DNA from: Bacillota bacterium
Lineage (GTDB): Bacteria; Bacillota; Desulfitobacteriia; Desulfitobacteriales; JAJXUE01
Reading direction: 5' to 3'
DNA length: 32,669 nucleotides
NCBI GenBank assembly: GCA_021811155.1
Contig: JAJZPO010000030.1
Coordinates: 1-32,669, forward strand
Part shown: positions 255 through 30,578 of the stretch, in pieces
Layout: the number at the start of each line of letters is the position of its first letter
Position numbering within the stretch: the first letter of the stretch is position 1
Program-made: the position numbers and the translations under genes
Notes under the pieces: generated by a model
Told to the model about the DNA's origin: nothing
What the model saw: only the letters and a program-made list of their open reading frames with translations
The model's database searches: none

Positions 255-734
255 TCAATATAAGCTAATTCCGTACTCCACCAAGGCTTGCCTTCTAAAC
301 CTCTCCCTGCAGTCACAGTTCCCGGCGCAGTCGCAGACATTGCCGACCTCAAGCATGCCCGTCAAATGGTGCCGTACCACCCCGAAGTTAACCATGGCTT
401 TTTGGGAGATATCCGTGGCCGCCCTAACTTTGGCGAAAAGGCCGAGATCAAGCGCCAAAAGCATGGGGTAGAGCCAAACCGCCCCGAACCGCCCAGTCTG
501 CATTCCGAGCGCCAGCCGGGCCAGACCCGCCGCGCACCCCAGCAGAAACAACGCTTTCCAGCCAAGCTCCCACCGTTTTGCTCTTACCAGCATGCTGTGG
601 CGGAGAACCAGTTCCTGAAAAACGGCTGTCATCCTCCGGTCAAACTTTAGGTCTTCCACCCTGCCGGTCCTGCCAAATTTCCTTAACGAAGTCGCAAGCG
701 CCAACTCTACGCACCTCAAAAACCCCGCGAACAT
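255..734 (-). CDS. Hypothetical small membrane protein with a C-terminal C-x-C cluster
   Basis: I do not recognise the family. The 159-residue product has a basic N-terminal third, then two likely membrane segments at about residues 59-77 and 84-101, and a C-terminal tail carrying the cluster CDCAGNCDC (spacing C-x-C-x3-C-x-C) followed by a basic stretch. Four closely spaced cysteines suggest a metal site or a disulphide patch, but this is inference. The ATG at 734 has no good ribosome binding site. A TTG at 704 preceded by GAGGTG is an alternative start, giving about 149 residues. It is the last minus-strand gene after the TPR/Hsp70-like pair, separated from it by about 190 bases containing a strong hairpin, so it is probably a separate transcript. 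Confidence 0.55.
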   Translation of the reverse strand: MFAGFLRCVELALATSLRKFGRTGRVEDLKFDRRMTAVFQELVLRHSMLVRAKRWELGWKALFLLGCAAGLARLALGMQTGRFGAVWLYPMLLALDLGLFAKVRAATDISQKAMVNFGVVRHHLTGMLEVGNVCDCAGNCDCRERFRRQALVEYGISLY

Positions 735-925: not shown

Positions 926-2146
926 CTAAAACCTCATCTCCAGCGGGCTGCTGACCATATCGTGATAAATGGAGGCCCCGCGCACCGACGCAAGTTCTGG
1001 ATTGGCAAATTCCCTGGGGACTTTGCCAAAGGTATGTTTGATCACCTGGCCCAGAACATGGACCCTCGCGGTCCCTCCCACCAGGAGGATTTCATCAATA
1101 TCACCCAGTCTGAGTTCAGCCGAATTTATAGCTCCCGAGACAGCCTCGAATATGCACGGAGTCCCTGCCTGAATGGAGGCGATGCAGCCGAATACCGCCG
1201 TATCATATTCTTGTTTTGAGACATCCTGTTCCAGAATCTTTTTGCCCGAGGGCCCAAAGATTCGCACCGGCACTGACAAATCACTCATTTTCCCAGGGGG
1301 TAGATGAGTGCTGATTACTTGGGCATCCATTTTTTCCACCAGGTCCCGTTTGACCTTTTCCGCCTCAAGCTGGATTTGCCGCTGCAGTTCCGCACTCAAC
1401 TCCGCCTCACTCAGCGTGCCTTTCAACACGGCCTGGTCAATCAGGTACTCGGCAAACCTGATATCAAAGTCCCTGCCGCCAACCCGGACACTGCAGGGCT
1501 TCGCCAGGTAGCGCGCCTCCAGTTCCTGAGCTTTCTCCACTACTTCCAATACGCTGGCCGTGGTGAAATTTTCTCCTGCATCAAGAACCAGTAACTTTTT
1601 GGGGGAAGTGAAGTCAAACTTGTGGTAGCCCAGATTGTAACGGGCTTGGTGTAACTGCATATCAAACAGTACCGAAAAACTGGCAGGCAAAAAATGCCTG
1701 TCTTCAAGTTCCGGAATCTCGACCCGCACAGCTCCCTTCAACAGGGCCAATTGCTCCGAAGTCAAATAATCCGGGTATGCGACGGAACAGCGGGAAAAGT
1801 CACCAAACAGGCCGGCCTGTTCCCGCAATTCCGCGACCAGCCTGGTAATTAATTGCTCCACCGGCAGTTCTTCTTTCCCTACCGTCACCTGTTCCTGTCC
1901 TTCAGCCAGGAGCTTAAGGGGGGAACAAACCTGTTCGGACATTTTAACCCATTTTACTCTTACGCCCCGGCCAATTTCAGCCATATCCTGATTGAAATGG
2001 ATCAACGCGGGCATTTGCTGGTGGCTGCCCCCTCCGTCACTCAGGCGAATCACTTCAGCGCTGGCAAATTGACCAATCACCCGGAAGGAAGCCAAGGCAA
2101 AATTGCCGCTGCCGATTTGCATTCCAACTTTGCGTTCTTCTCCCAT
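926..2146 (-). CDS. Hsp70/DnaK-like actin-fold ATPase-domain protein
   Basis: The 406 residues span only the nucleotide-binding domain of the Hsp70/actin superfamily and lack a DnaK-type substrate-binding domain. Recognisable elements are a phosphate-1-like loop near the N-terminus (MQIGSGNF, lacking the usual Asp), a phosphate-2-like segment (VLDAGENFTTASVL), a GGRDFD motif like the DnaK GGEDFD, the adenosine-site segment EILLVGGTARVHVLG, and a C-terminal A-S-V-R-G-A-S-I helix. Both phosphate loops are degenerate, so ATP hydrolysis is uncertain. The ATG at 2146 has GGGGGAG five bases upstream. That site overlaps the stop of the TPR gene, so translation is probably coupled. A client-binding or scaffold role with the TPR partner is inference. 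Confidence 0.85.
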   Translation of the reverse strand: MGEERKVGMQIGSGNFALASFRVIGQFASAEVIRLSDGGGSHQQMPALIHFNQDMAEIGRGVRVKWVKMSEQVCSPLKLLAEGQEQVTVGKEELPVEQLITRLVAELREQAGLFGDFSRCSVAYPDYLTSEQLALLKGAVRVEIPELEDRHFLPASFSVLFDMQLHQARYNLGYHKFDFTSPKKLLVLDAGENFTTASVLEVVEKAQELEARYLAKPCSVRVGGRDFDIRFAEYLIDQAVLKGTLSEAELSAELQRQIQLEAEKVKRDLVEKMDAQVISTHLPPGKMSDLSVPVRIFGPSGKKILEQDVSKQEYDTAVFGCIASIQAGTPCIFEAVSGAINSAELRLGDIDEILLVGGTARVHVLGQVIKHTFGKVPREFANPELASVRGASIYHDMVSSPLEMRF

Positions 2147-2157
2147 GACTACTCCCC

Positions 2158-4686
2158 CTAACCTAACCGAACCCGGCGATAATTGTGGGGCCGCAGGATA
2201 TTGAGGTGATCCGTGGACACCTGAATCTCGGTTTCCTCCATTGAATCCTGAGCCAATGCTGCCGCCAAAGCATACTGACCTGTTTCCTGGTACAAGACCC
2301 CGAGGGCCCTGCGAATTTCCACATTTCCAGGCATATTGGTATGAGCATCCTCCAACAGCTTCCTGGACTCAGCCAGGTTCCCGGCCAGATACTCTCTGGT
2401 TGCAGCTTTTAGATAGAGTTCCTTAACCTTGTCCCATACTTCAGGCGCCTTCCTGGCGATTGATTCGTAGACCTTGAGCGCCTCACTGTCATTGCCAACA
2501 GACTCATAGAGAGCAGCTTCTTTCAAACCAAGATCTAACACATTCAAGCCCATTGCCCGTCCCTGCTCCAGTTCCTCCAATGCCCTGGCGGCTTGATTTT
2601 CGGCAATCAAACCGTCAACCCGTTCCGACAATATCTTCATGGCCATGCCCAGCATGTCGGGAGTGGGACGGTTTCCCAGTTCCTGCCGGCAGATTTCCCA
2701 TGCCTTGTCCAGTTCGCCCTGTTCCACCCGGAAACGGATTTGTTCCCATACCAGGGACTGCAGCCCCGCCCGGAATTCCTCGCTTTCCTGACTGTAAAGG
2801 TTCTCCAGGTGGCGTTTTGCTTCTTCAAACATCCCCTTGGACCGGTAATAATTAAACAGTTGTTCCCTGTTTTCACGCTCCAAAAGACCTTGGTCGGCCA
2901 AAGACTCGAACAGTTCAGCAGCTTGATCCAGTTCACCCAACTTCTGCAGGGCCGCAGCCAGGTTGGCGGTAACCCTGGTATCTGCCGGGTCAGCATCATA
3001 CAGCGTTTGCAGTAGGTACCGGGCTTTTCCGTCATTCCCGGTTTGCAGGTAACTCTCACTCAATCTTTGTGCAAGTTCCCGCTCGAATCCTCCAACTTCC
3101 AGCGCCGTTTCCAGGTATTCCTGAACTTTGCTCTCGTCTGATTGGTCGGCCAATCGACGCAAAACCCTGATTACCCAGTCCTTGGCATCTTCTTCGCCGT
3201 GCTCCATAGAAGCATAAAACTTATCCAGGGCTGATTCCAGTTCATCCCGTTCGAACAGGCTCTTGCCGAACATGAATTCAAGTCTGGCCATGCGCTGCCT
3301 GTAACGGGTGTCCGAATATCCCTTGAAACTGGACGCAGCTACTTCCTCTGCCTCCTGGAATGAGCCGGTCTCCAGGTAGAGGTCAAACAAACTGGCTGCT
3401 GTATCCGGGTCCGCTTTTAATTCCAGGGCCAGCCGATAATGCCGGATCGCCTCGGCTGAGTTGCCCATCCGCTGGTAGATCTGGCCCAGTTCAGCTTGAA
3501 TCTCATCTTCATTTAAGCCCAGTCTCGTGGCTCGGCCGAAGAAGTCCAAGGCTGCTGCCAATTGATCCTGAGCCAGACACAACCGGGCCAGCTTGACGCT
3601 GCCCAGTTTCGTCCCGGGGGCCAGAGCGGCAACCCGGTCAAAATCAACTCCAGCGTCCATTTCGGCGAGCATGCCTAATAATTCGATCCCTTCCTCCGAA
3701 TCAGGGAATTCCGCCAAGGAGTGCAGCACACTGGCTGCGGCCGCAGGCAGTTTGCCCAAGCCGGTTTCGACCTTGGCCCGAGCCAGCAAAACGTCCGGAT
3801 GAGGTTCCAGAATATAGGCTGTCTCCAAAAGTTTTTCCGCCTTCTCAAGTTCCCCTTTGACCTGTTCTTCCCCTGCAAGCTGTACCAGCCAGACAGCATT
3901 ATCGTTTTGCATGGGAGTTTTTTCCCGTACCACTGAAGCCCAGGCTGGCACTGGGTCAGAGTCCAATGCGGGCGCTTCCTCCTTGCGGGTATTTTCCTGC
4001 CGCATGCTCCCCATCTCAATTTCGCCTTCCTGCGGCGGGGAAACTAGATTCTGGGGTGTTGGGTCCGCATTTTTGCCTGGGTCCGCAGCCTCTTTCCGCA
4101 GCTCAGACAGTGTCAGGTCCACAACCTGCAATGCAGCCCGGGGGAAATCGTCACCCTGAGCTTCGCCGGCGGGCACTGCCCCAGGGCCGCCCGATGCATC
4201 AGAGCCTTCCGTCTCACCGCCGGGTGTTAAGCTTATCTGCTGGGTCTGAATCTGTTCCAGGTCAATCTCCCATGGGAGTTTTTCCGGCTCACTATGAGTC
4301 GAATCCAAAAGTATTCCTTGGTCCGTATCTCCGGCTTGGCCAACAGGAACGGGCTCCGTCAGAGGCGGTGCAATCTTGTTCAGCAGTTCTTCCCATGTCG
4401 GCTCTTTCCTCTGACCCGCATCAGGCTGAACCTCGCGGTTTTGCCGCGCTGCTGCATCAGGCGCTTTTCTTTCCCGTAACAAAACATCCGGTTCGCCTCC
4501 CACTCCGGCAGAAAGGCTTGTCCCAAAATCAGGCGCTACGGAATCCCTGTCAGGATACACAGCGCTTTTTACTGCAGCGGCGTCTTGGTCTGGCACGGTT
4601 CCACTCTTGCGGTTTGCAGGTTCGGGCTCATCCATGCCAAATAACCTGCGAAACAGCCCCACCTTTTGTTCCTTTTGATTCGCCAC
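2158..4686 (-). CDS. Large tetratricopeptide-repeat protein
   Basis: The 842-residue product has two parts. The first ~240 residues are acidic, Pro/Glu/Gln-rich and low-complexity, probably disordered, after a basic start (LFRRLFG). From about residue 250 to the end it is a continuous run of TPR-like helix pairs with A-x-x-x-Y/F-x-x-A-L-x-L-x-P spacing (for example AEAIRHYRLALELKADPD and LGVLYQETGQYALAAALA). There is no signal peptide or membrane segment, so it is likely cytoplasmic. I chose the GTG at 4686 because GGGAGG sits seven bases upstream; a longer ATG frame from 4716 has no such site. The Hsp70-like gene follows after 11 bases. TPR proteins commonly dock chaperones, so the pair probably works together, but the specific function is unknown. 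Confidence 0.85.
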   Translation of the reverse strand: MANQKEQKVGLFRRLFGMDEPEPANRKSGTVPDQDAAAVKSAVYPDRDSVAPDFGTSLSAGVGGEPDVLLRERKAPDAAARQNREVQPDAGQRKEPTWEELLNKIAPPLTEPVPVGQAGDTDQGILLDSTHSEPEKLPWEIDLEQIQTQQISLTPGGETEGSDASGGPGAVPAGEAQGDDFPRAALQVVDLTLSELRKEAADPGKNADPTPQNLVSPPQEGEIEMGSMRQENTRKEEAPALDSDPVPAWASVVREKTPMQNDNAVWLVQLAGEEQVKGELEKAEKLLETAYILEPHPDVLLARAKVETGLGKLPAAAASVLHSLAEFPDSEEGIELLGMLAEMDAGVDFDRVAALAPGTKLGSVKLARLCLAQDQLAAALDFFGRATRLGLNEDEIQAELGQIYQRMGNSAEAIRHYRLALELKADPDTAASLFDLYLETGSFQEAEEVAASSFKGYSDTRYRQRMARLEFMFGKSLFERDELESALDKFYASMEHGEEDAKDWVIRVLRRLADQSDESKVQEYLETALEVGGFERELAQRLSESYLQTGNDGKARYLLQTLYDADPADTRVTANLAAALQKLGELDQAAELFESLADQGLLERENREQLFNYYRSKGMFEEAKRHLENLYSQESEEFRAGLQSLVWEQIRFRVEQGELDKAWEICRQELGNRPTPDMLGMAMKILSERVDGLIAENQAARALEELEQGRAMGLNVLDLGLKEAALYESVGNDSEALKVYESIARKAPEVWDKVKELYLKAATREYLAGNLAESRKLLEDAHTNMPGNVEIRRALGVLYQETGQYALAAALAQDSMEETEIQVSTDHLNILRPHNYRRVRLG

Positions 4687-4701
4687 TGGGCAACCTCCCA
4701 A

Positions 4702-4722
4702 AATTAGGTGCAACACCTAATT
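4702..4722. promoter_or_regulatory. Palindrome immediately upstream of the TPR gene ribosome binding site
   Basis: AATTAGGTG and CACCTAATT form a perfect 9-bp inverted repeat with a 3-base spacer, ending about three bases before the ribosome binding site (4694-4699). It could be an operator or a leader hairpin that modulates translation. Which one cannot be told from sequence. Confidence 0.4.
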
Positions 4723-4857: not shown

Positions 4858-5505
4858 CTAGTGTACGCTCGGGGTTTTATTTCTCGGCTCCGCCGGCGGC
4901 AGCAATTCTACTTTACCCTCTCTTGGCTTTGCCAGAGGGAGACGTTTCACACCCAGTTCATTTTTTTTCGCAGGCGGCAGGGGAAATCCGTCATCAGCAT
5001 TGTATTCCTGCATGAATGTGCGGAATTCATCGGTGAGCAGCAAACCAGAAAATACCTTTACTTCGTTCTTTACGTTCAGCAAAATCAGGGAACGCTTGAG
5101 ATTTATCAAAATGCTCTGCGTGCTGAAGGTAACCGGCTTGTTATCTACCATCAACTCTACATCTACATTTTTGCTGTAGGAAAACTCCAGACTGAAAGGT
5201 TTGTTGTTCTGCCATGCGCCTTCTTGTCCCGGTTCAGGGTGCAAGGATGTGTCCACTGCAGACCGCATTACACGCATGAGGGAAGTTATATCGCTTCTGG
5301 TCAGCGCAGTTTCGGCCAGGGTTTTACCGGCCGTGTCCCTGGTGAGAATAACCTTGGCAGGAGTTGGCAGCAGCACATCAGGGTACTTGTACAGCTGCAC
5401 AGCCATGTCTGTTTGCCGGGTGCCGCATCCTAAACCACTCAATCCACTCACAACCAAGAGCAGAATGAACAGCCATAATAACCCTTTACCTTTCAACCAT
5501 ACCAC
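4858..5505 (-). CDS. Lipoprotein of unknown function
   Basis: The 215-residue product starts with a basic residue cluster, a hydrophobic core (LLWLFILLLVVSG) and a lipobox ending LSGLGC, so it should be exported and lipid-anchored on the outer face of the membrane. The mature part has no motif I recognise. It looks like an alpha/beta domain of about 130 residues followed by a Pro/Lys-rich tail. GAGGAG lies four bases before the ATG at 5505. The next gene (TPR protein) starts 171 bases downstream, so cotranscription is possible but not shown. Upstream is the structured region with a terminator at 5611-5631. Confidence 0.75.
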   Translation of the reverse strand: MVWLKGKGLLWLFILLLVVSGLSGLGCGTRQTDMAVQLYKYPDVLLPTPAKVILTRDTAGKTLAETALTRSDITSLMRVMRSAVDTSLHPEPGQEGAWQNNKPFSLEFSYSKNVDVELMVDNKPVTFSTQSILINLKRSLILLNVKNEVKVFSGLLLTDEFRTFMQEYNADDGFPLPPAKKNELGVKRLPLAKPREGKVELLPPAEPRNKTPSVH

Positions 5506-5599: not shown

Positions 5600-5631
5600 A
5601 AAAGAAAAGAGTCCCGGGTATACCCCGGGAC
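5600..5631 (-). terminator. Rho-independent terminator, minus strand
   Basis: GTCCCGGG and CCCGGGAC form a perfect 8-bp GC stem with a 5-base loop. On the minus strand it is followed by a T-rich run (plus-strand bases 5600-5610 are A-rich). It ends a minus-strand transcript that comes from 5640-6300, or acts as an attenuator ahead of the lipoprotein gene at 5505. Confidence 0.75.
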
Positions 5632-6333
5632 AAGGTACTGTCGCCGCAAAGTCTTTCCTGCCAGCCCATTAATTTAACCCAGCCTCCGGTGGCCGGAATA
5701 CCAGGGAAAAGCCCCCATACCTGTTTGGGCTTGGCCTTCCGGTTAACAGCCTGTTCAATAAAATCATCTCACCGCTGAGGGTTTTTTGTTCGTCACTAGA
5801 GAAACATTCTGGTACGCCGCCCTTTTCCGCTTGCAGGTTTTCCGCTCAGGGATATACGGAATTCAGTCCGCCTTGTCCCCTGCCTGCAACCGGTTTTCGG
5901 CTGTAGCCTACCTCGACCAGGACTTGCCAAGCAGAATCGCCGGTTATCTGTCACCGGCCAATAAACGATTCTGTGCCCCCGCTGGCTGCCTCCGGGACAG
6001 AATGTCGCCGGCCATGGTTTGTCCACGGTATTCGCCGTGTCCGGTTGGAAGGGACAGGCGGGATTCCCCATGGGGCTGCAGCAAGAGCCGGTATACTTGC
6101 CAACTTGTGGGCCGGGCTGCTCCCGGTTCCTCCCCCTCCTCCTTTCGCCGTAAACTAGGATTGAACACCGGTCTTTTCTCCACCGGGCCTTCGCCCGTGA
6201 ACTGGGCTTTACCTGCCCCTTCTTCTGGTTTGCCCGTGCCAATCCAGTACACTCCGTGCACTATTAACTTCAATGCAAATTTGTAAATTCCTTCCATTTT
6301 ATCTCGCGGGTGGTAAGATTTTCGCCTCCGGCC
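5632..6333 (-). other. Gene-poor region rich in nested complementary helices
   Basis: No recognisable protein is encoded here. Complementary arms include CAGAATCG/CGATTCTG (5932-5939, 5966-5973) enclosing CCGGT/ACCGG (5940-5944, 5953-5957). A three-step nested stem has arms at 5831-5837/5883-5889, 5847-5851/5878-5882 and 5857-5860/5867-5870. CACGG/CCGTG pair at 6024-6028/6035-6039. On the minus strand this ends at the terminator 5600-5631. A structured RNA is possible, as is a decayed gene. I looked for known riboswitch cores (cyclic-di-GMP-I, cobalamin, Moco, guanidine-I) and did not find a match. Confidence 0.35.
5944..6297 (-). CDS. Doubtful hypothetical reading frame
   Basis: A 117-residue frame opens with a plausible N-terminus (MEGIYKFALKLIVHGVYW) and continues as a basic, Gly/Pro/Arg-rich sequence without recognisable features. 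No clear ribosome binding site precedes the ATG at 6297. It overlaps the helix-rich region, which is a better explanation for constraint here. It could be the start of a decayed gene. Confidence 0.2.
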   Translation of the reverse strand: MEGIYKFALKLIVHGVYWIGTGKPEEGAGKAQFTGEGPVEKRPVFNPSLRRKEEGEEPGAARPTSWQVYRLLLQPHGESRLSLPTGHGEYRGQTMAGDILSRRQPAGAQNRLLAGDR

Positions 6334-6603
6334 TTAGTCCAACTGCAAAGAGATAATGAAAATTGCAAAGAGGATGAAAGGCAGGTAATTTGAACTTGCT
6401 CCCCTCACCAGTTCTTTGCCCTCAAGTTCTCCGGGGTTCTCCAGGTACCAGTCAACTTTGCCGCAATCCAGGCAAACCCTGCCCCTAAAAGGCTTGGTCT
6501 TCACCACAATGCCCGACAGGTAGTTCACCCCAAACTTGTTGACAGGAACGTCTTGTTTTAAGTTCTCAGATCCGCAGCAGGAACATTTTACATCCTCGGA
6601 CAT
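6334..6603 (-). CDS. Small zinc-ribbon membrane protein
   Basis: The 89-residue product has two CxxC pairs, CSCCGSEN near residues 7-10 and CLDCGK near residues 45-48, forming a zinc-ribbon-like domain. A single C-terminal hydrophobic segment (about residues 73-87, LPFILFAIFIISLQL) would anchor it in the membrane. I chose the ATG at 6603 because GGGAGGAGG lies seven bases upstream; the longer frame to 6621 would need a TTG lying before that site. Function unknown. It is monocistronic as far as can be seen, with no clear terminator. Confidence 0.75.
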   Translation of the reverse strand: MSEDVKCSCCGSENLKQDVPVNKFGVNYLSGIVVKTKPFRGRVCLDCGKVDWYLENPGELEGKELVRGASSNYLPFILFAIFIISLQLD

Positions 6604-6817
6604 AGGTTTTCCTCCTCCCAAAGGTGCACTTCTTGCTCCTACATCCTATGTGACTGGCAGCAAATCTGGTACCCTTTCCCAGTAGATCCACAAATAGGCG
6701 GAAGGTTAAGTTTGCAGACGTTCGGCCAGGAGCTGGACAGTATGCTTGGCTTTAACTTTAACTCCCTGTCTGTCCAAGCCTGAAAATTTCAACTTTTTTT
6801 CCATTATATAATAACAG
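6604..6817. other. Intergenic spacer between divergent genes
   Basis: About 210 bases between the divergent zinc-ribbon and 49-aa genes with no reading frame or RNA that I can support. The far end merges into the AT-rich promoter of the 49-aa gene. Confidence 0.5.
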
Positions 6818-30066: not shown

Positions 30067-30137
30067 AATCATTCTAGTGGGAATAGGCGAACCTCAAGCA
30101 CATAGCTTAAAGATACCCTAAAACCTATAATATATAA

Positions 30138-30578
30138 GCGAAGTCACCCTGTAAGCCGGGTTCTGTCACCCCTTGCGGGGGAGATGATCATCTATCTGGG
30201 ACGCCAGTTGCCTGACGCCTCTAGCGACCTTACCCGGGAACGGAACGGGCAGCTCCATTGTTCCCCTATTCAGTCTTGCTCCAGGTGGGGTTTACATAGC
30301 CAGCTAGTCGCCTAGCTGCTGGTGAGCTCTTACCTCGCCTTTCCACCCTTACCCAGCACTCAATCCTGTTTATCATTAAGAAAGCAAACAGGTGCTATAA
30401 AGAAGCAGTTTGATTACTCATAATAAATAGGTTTGAGTGCTGGGCGGTATCTCTCTGTTGCACTTTCCTTCAGGTCACCCTGACTGGGCGTTACCCAGCA
30501 CCCTGCCCTGTGGAGCCCGGACTTTCCTCAGGTACGACCTTTCGGTCCCTGTACCCGCGATCACCCAGATGACTTCGC
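30138..30578 (-). ncRNA. rnpB: RNase P RNA, bacterial type A
   Basis: The catalytic RNA that trims tRNA 5' leaders. On the minus strand it starts GCGAAGTCATC and ends TGACTTCGC, forming helix P1 (ends at 30578 and 30138). The universal signatures are present: GAGGAAAGTCCGGGCTCC (plus 30514-30531), AGAGAGATACC-type core sequence and AGAACCCGGCTTA near the 3' end (plus 30152-30164). At about 441 bases it is longer than usual. The excess is an AT-rich 69-base insertion (30364-30432) capping a 12-bp stem (30352-30363 with 30433-30444) at the P12 position. Confidence 0.95.

Follow-up and report, generated by a model that had tools for sequence, protein, structure and literature searches.

The closest described counterparts of the system analysed here are bacterial Hsp70 proteins such as Escherichia coli DnaK, in which the transition state of hydrolysis is stabilised by K70, a residue in contact with the gamma-phosphate (PMC8215388). 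DnaK, HscA and HscC all retain D8, T12, R151, E171, G197, G198, T199 and D201, and YegD retains all of these residues but T12 and R151. In the open-access literature searched, a scope outside which most subscription papers fall, no NBD-only or pseudo-ATPase Hsp70 paired with a TPR protein was found. The window (the whole 32,669-nucleotide stretch of Bacillota DNA analysed) carries three genes that are kept together, one of which encodes an Hsp70-like protein with a conserved NBD fold and with hydrolysis residues swapped for others that are equally conserved. The features concerned are as follows.

255..734, minus strand: two-TM, Cys-rich membrane protein of about 150-159 aa; downstream neighbour, outside the module
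926..2146, minus strand: Hsp70-NBD-like protein, 406 aa; degenerate active site, without linker or substrate-binding domain
2147..2160, minus strand: TPR stop TAG, Shine-Dalgarno GGGGGAG and 11-base gap to the next ATG, read directly in the sequence
2158..4686, minus strand: TPR protein, 842 aa; acidic N-terminus, TPR array, conserved C-terminal tail
4858..5505, minus strand: predicted lipoprotein, 215 aa; third member of the conserved gene set
5611..5631, minus strand: intrinsic terminator with an 8-bp stem (7 G-C pairs), upstream of the lipoprotein gene

A predicted lipoprotein, a TPR and an Hsp70-like gene kept together

The coordinates, strand, protein lengths (406 and 842 aa) and 11-base gap given by the first-pass annotation were all correct on recheck. 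The TPR gene starts with GTG at 4686, and the Shine-Dalgarno sequence GGGGGAG lies directly 3' of its stop codon TAG (TAGGGGGAGTAGTCATG). The gap and the Shine-Dalgarno sequence are identical in a second genome of the same genus (G048), and an AAGGAG-type sequence precedes the ATG of the Hsp70-like gene in a further genome of the same family (G047). Translational coupling of the TPR and Hsp70-like genes is probable. The pair had been described as spanning 926-4686, which stands, but the module reaches further, to the omitted lipoprotein gene at 4858-5505. The spacer between the lipoprotein and TPR genes is 171 bases in the window and 46 in G047, and the lipoprotein gene likely belongs to the same operon as the pair. 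The terminator, also found upstream of the lipoprotein gene in G047, is likely the 5' limit of the trio transcript, unless it is an attenuator. Two hairpins, both near-perfect and lacking a T-run on the gene strand, lie at 895-925, past the Hsp70-like stop (TCAAGCCCCATGC...GCATGGGGCTTGA), and at 4695-4720, immediately ahead of the TPR start (AATTAGGTG...CACCTAATT); they are possible regulatory or stabilising elements.

To define the distribution of the module, 74 genomes of the window's order and 83 of its class were searched. As a result, the Hsp70-like and TPR proteins were found in only three genomes (the window's, G048 and G047), and the trio is absent from the 80 other genomes of the class. 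These three, all draft assemblies, are all the available genomes of the family, and the trio sits at the same locus in each, in the order lipoprotein, TPR, Hsp70-like and 150-aa membrane protein. The pairing on which the first-pass annotation had staked its proposal is conserved, as every genome with either gene has both, adjacent and in the same order (3/3). Other matches in the order are weak and fall on long Hsp70-family ORFs, the closest proteins in a phylum sample of 398 genomes are Hsp70s of 540-570 aa (about 1e-17 to 1e-23), and 63 genomes of a further class yielded nothing new. A scan of 85,000 species genomes, with exact-peptide seeds that reach close kin only, returned the same two relatives. 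In addition, no relatives of the TPR or Hsp70-like protein were found in viral contigs, and none of the three proteins matched the PADLOC anti-phage defence models.

Homologues of the 150-aa membrane protein (E about 1e-11) come from a different family of the order. In three of these genomes (L062-L064), the membrane gene lies near DEAD-type helicase and lactate-utilisation-type iron-sulfur genes (named by eye), with the same flanks as in G047 and no lipoprotein, TPR or Hsp70-like gene between them, indicating that the three genes entered or left a conserved site together. The membrane gene was considered as a fourth member of the module and rejected, because relatives that lack the trio have it at this locus too; it is ancestral to the locus and outside the module. 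Its product (255-734, minus strand) has a conserved CDCxxxCxC tail and a GVVRHHL motif, and in two families of the order its gene has stayed close to one for a DEAD-type helicase.

The predicted lipoprotein has a hydrophobic leader and an LSGLGC-type lipobox, in which L-G-C, with the Cys, is invariant in all three genomes (by eye), and it matches no Pfam family. Its presence in the gene set points to an envelope role. Just upstream of its gene lies a non-coding stretch of roughly 620-700 nt (5611-6320, minus strand) that ends in a strong terminator. It shares 78% identity with G048, a level close to that of the coding DNA, and its counterpart in G047, about 600 nt long and in the same place, is too diverged for blastn. 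It has no Rfam, tRNA or tmRNA match and is a candidate structured RNA or leader/attenuator. A 95-aa ORF at 6334-6621 (minus strand), which resembles a Cys-rich ribbon plus a transmembrane segment, lies beside the trio in all three genomes (93% identical in G048, 63% in G047). The window also contains a class A RNase P RNA at 30136-30576 (minus strand; Rfam RF00010, 322 bits).

The Hsp70-like and TPR proteins

Profile search upheld the Hsp70 assignment of the 406-aa product, with a Pfam HSP70 match (E=1e-16, 57-61 bits against a cut-off of 20.6) that covers only profile positions 183-376 of 599; identity to DnaK is about 21%. NCBIfam names neither the Hsp70-like nor the TPR protein, the DnaK and TPR equivalog scores being far under the cut-offs. 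An AlphaFold model shows a complete Hsp70-NBD fold (pLDDT 87.3, pTM 0.88), based on a 26-row alignment of the three family sequences and 23 Hsp70 NBDs from other loci, homologues found by sequence that favour a DnaK-like model; the model from the three family rows alone reached pLDDT 44 and was discarded. The top PDB matches of the retained model in Foldseek are the DnaK and mortalin NBDs (E about 1e-23, TM <=0.81 by target length).

The three family members were aligned with DnaK, HscA, HscC and YegD, and residues are numbered as in E. coli DnaK. All three members share the replacements D8 to Q, T11 to S, T12 to G, R151 to L and S274 to V, together with G197 to E, G198 to N, T199 to F and D201 to T in the phosphate-2 region. 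E171 is replaced by A, A and S across the three, and K70 is kept in two and is Q in the third. In the window protein, the phosphate-1 motif is IGSGN and the phosphate-2 motif is DxGENFTT, and the phosphate-1 Asp is absent as first reported, D8 aligning with Q10. The description of degenerate phosphate loops thus holds, and the degeneracy goes past it, since none of the three members retains T12, R151, E171, G197, G198, T199 or D201 either. G10, N13, P143, D194 and G196 are kept, as are the adenosine-side elements, namely the GGxD of GGRDFD (GGxDFD), K270, LVGG and R345, and E267, which is D in G047; the GGRDFD and LVGGTAR elements noted earlier are indeed present. The substrate-binding domain is likewise absent as described, the protein stopping where the DnaK interdomain linker would begin, with nothing aligned to D393. 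The residues that in Hsp70s place Mg/phosphate and catalyse hydrolysis have disappeared from all members, and an ATPase-driven client cycle is therefore probably absent.

A comparison of the window with G048 gives the Hsp70-like gene a dN/dS of 0.076, the lowest among four neighbouring genes (lipoprotein 0.15, TPR 0.25, small membrane gene 0.23), and residues 1-30, with the altered phosphate-1, are the stretch best conserved against G047 (80%). These data indicate that the gene is under strong purifying selection and that the changed motifs are a maintained state, not decay. A decaying pseudogene was ruled out by the dN/dS value and the invariant replacement motifs. Two ordinary full-length DnaKs are encoded elsewhere in the genome, so chaperoning is already covered.

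The TPR assignment of the 842-aa product was confirmed by several Pfam models above curated thresholds, including TPR_19 (E=2e-21, 76 bits), TPR_14, TPR_2, TPR_12, TPR_7, TPR_1 and TPR_15. The NCBIfam equivalog cut-offs of the named TPR families were not reached (PrsT 63/312, LapB 54/363 and MamA 44/200 bits). The array spans about residues 264-815. The long N-terminus (1-262) is net acidic as proposed, with 48 D+E against 26 K+R, and is P/G/Q-rich; its conservation is low (30-64% in 50-aa stretches, even between members of the genus), and it is mostly absent in G047. Two short motifs within it, KxGxFxxLF and TW[ED][ED]L, are conserved. The C-terminal tail (STDHLNILRPHNYRRVRLG) is highly conserved and is the best conserved part of the protein, with residues 801-842 being 98% identical to G048. 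A membrane-targeting amphipathic helix at the N-terminus was considered and rejected, the hydrophobic moment of the amphipathic N-terminal motif being unexceptional; membrane attachment of the cytoplasmic TPR/Hsp70-like pair is for this reason speculative.

Possible roles of the gene set

The reading we favour, to which we give about an even chance, is that the gene set forms an envelope-linked scaffold, in which a nucleotide-locked or inactive Hsp70-fold subunit is held by a TPR superhelix, rather than an Hsp70 machine. With the adenosine side kept, the hydrolysis residues lost, no linker or client domain and a TPR array alongside, a structural or nucleotide-locked subunit fits better than a chaperone cycle, and the Hsp70 head gives the impression of an ATPase fold turned to structural use, not of a working chaperone. 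Nucleotide binding by the Hsp70-like protein, through the adenosine side that it has kept, would be weak, permanent or absent, with little or no hydrolysis. The protein may then be a two-lobed subunit, either rigid or switching slowly, that the TPR superhelix holds in place, a complex suggested by gene adjacency, and the conserved C-terminal repeats and tail of the TPR protein are its likely dock. The TPR protein could gather other cytoplasmic clients, and the lipoprotein could act at the same membrane from its outer side. The complex would then probably have a role in structure or assembly, much as a degenerate actin/Hsp70-fold scaffold does, and not be a chaperone machine. More tentatively, and with a chance that we put well short of even, the protein may represent a new pseudo-Hsp70 class, NBD-only and with hydrolysis lost, locked to nucleotide, bound to a TPR scaffold as its obligate partner and forming with the lipoprotein an undescribed envelope assembly complex.

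The first-pass annotation had proposed an assembly or scaffolding module in which the TPR protein replaces the client-binding domain. The scaffold role fits the present data; replacement within a working Hsp70 is weakened by the loss of the catalytic residues and the linker. We consider it unlikely that the two proteins form a true split chaperone, in which the NBD-like protein would still bind and slowly hydrolyse ATP and drive client binding and release by a TPR stand-in for the substrate-binding domain. TPR arrays commonly bind peptides, the pair is conserved and probably translationally coupled, and the adenosine-pocket residues, D194, N13 and G10 are kept, but none of the three members retains D8, E171, T199 or D201, and the protein has no interdomain linker. 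K70, which stabilises the hydrolysis transition state in DnaK (PMC8215388), is lost in one member, and no J-domain or GrpE gene was recognised beside the pair.

A nucleotide sensor, which would bind ATP or ADP without hydrolysis and report the energy or nucleotide state to a TPR partner regulating, for example, an envelope or regulatory complex, also seems improbable. Conserved adenosine-side motifs combined with lost catalytic residues, and the strong purifying selection, would suit such a sensor; however, no effector domain was found, and both phosphate-binding loops are heavily altered, making triphosphate discrimination doubtful. That the genes are functionally unlinked neighbours inherited in one small lineage is very unlikely, for although only three genomes of one family carry them and the surrounding locus is partly syntenic, so that adjacency alone is weak evidence, their order and tight spacing persist despite divergence to 56% (Hsp70-like) and about 38% (TPR, lipoprotein), saturated synonymous sites, differing coding GC and rearranged gene order elsewhere (G000 vs G047), and relatives lack all three genes together.

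If the pair forms a complex, a bacterial Hsp70 head would have been reused as a structural or sensing subunit, as pseudokinases reuse the kinase fold. Such a case, if true, would show how far the actin/Hsp70 active site can be eroded while the fold stays under strong selection. The scope is narrow, as the module is known from three genomes, and its function is putative.

Comparison with other Hsp70 systems

The best-scoring relatives outside the family are Hsp70-like proteins of 540-570 aa, encoded in other Bacillota beside HEAT-repeat and metallo-beta-lactamase-fold genes (L044-L048, L067, L068; A1 profile <=81 bits). An operon of these other Bacillota, which looks undescribed, encodes a 539-569-aa Hsp70-like protein together with HEAT-repeat and metallo-beta-lactamase-fold proteins, and that of L068 has RMMBL/beta-CASP matches and two BrxC/BrxD-type ATPases upstream. 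The HEAT-operon loci are as follows.

L067, 9618-17958: HEAT-operon locus
L068, 624-10509: HEAT-operon locus
L069, 6086-14377: HEAT-operon locus

Like the window protein, the HEAT-operon Hsp70s have an insertion of roughly 12-20 residues ending in DFSxPKK just before phosphate-2 (common motif DFSxPKKVLVFD), and a gene for a helical-repeat protein adjoins theirs, as in the trio. Unlike it, they have intact catalytic residues (except the R151 equivalent) and a substrate-binding region, and their partner is a HEAT rather than a TPR protein. In a tree built on the NBD columns with the insertion left out, DnaK, HscA and HscC form a supported clade (95/95); the Hsp70-like proteins of the trio lie outside it on a very long branch (4.5 changes per site) and group with the HEAT-operon Hsp70s without support (73/48). 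Kinship is therefore not claimed, although the insertion and the higher profile score speak for it.

YegD of E. coli is also a short bacterial Hsp70-family protein (450 aa), but it keeps D8, E171, GGGT and D201, is 18% identical to the window protein and has no adjoining TPR gene annotated in E. coli K-12. The E. coli HscC locus resembles the window in placing an atypical Hsp70 near solenoid-repeat proteins (Sel1-repeat YbeQ/YbeT), whereas in HscC both the active site and the client domain are intact, and its partners include J-proteins (DjlB/DjlC). With the DnaK NBD and the Hsp70 family (PF00012), the window protein shares the whole NBD fold in the model, GGxDFD, LVGG, E/D267, K270, R345 and D194; it differs from DnaK in its replaced phosphate-1, phosphate-2, E171 and proline-switch Arg, and is without the linker and substrate-binding domain that DnaK possesses.
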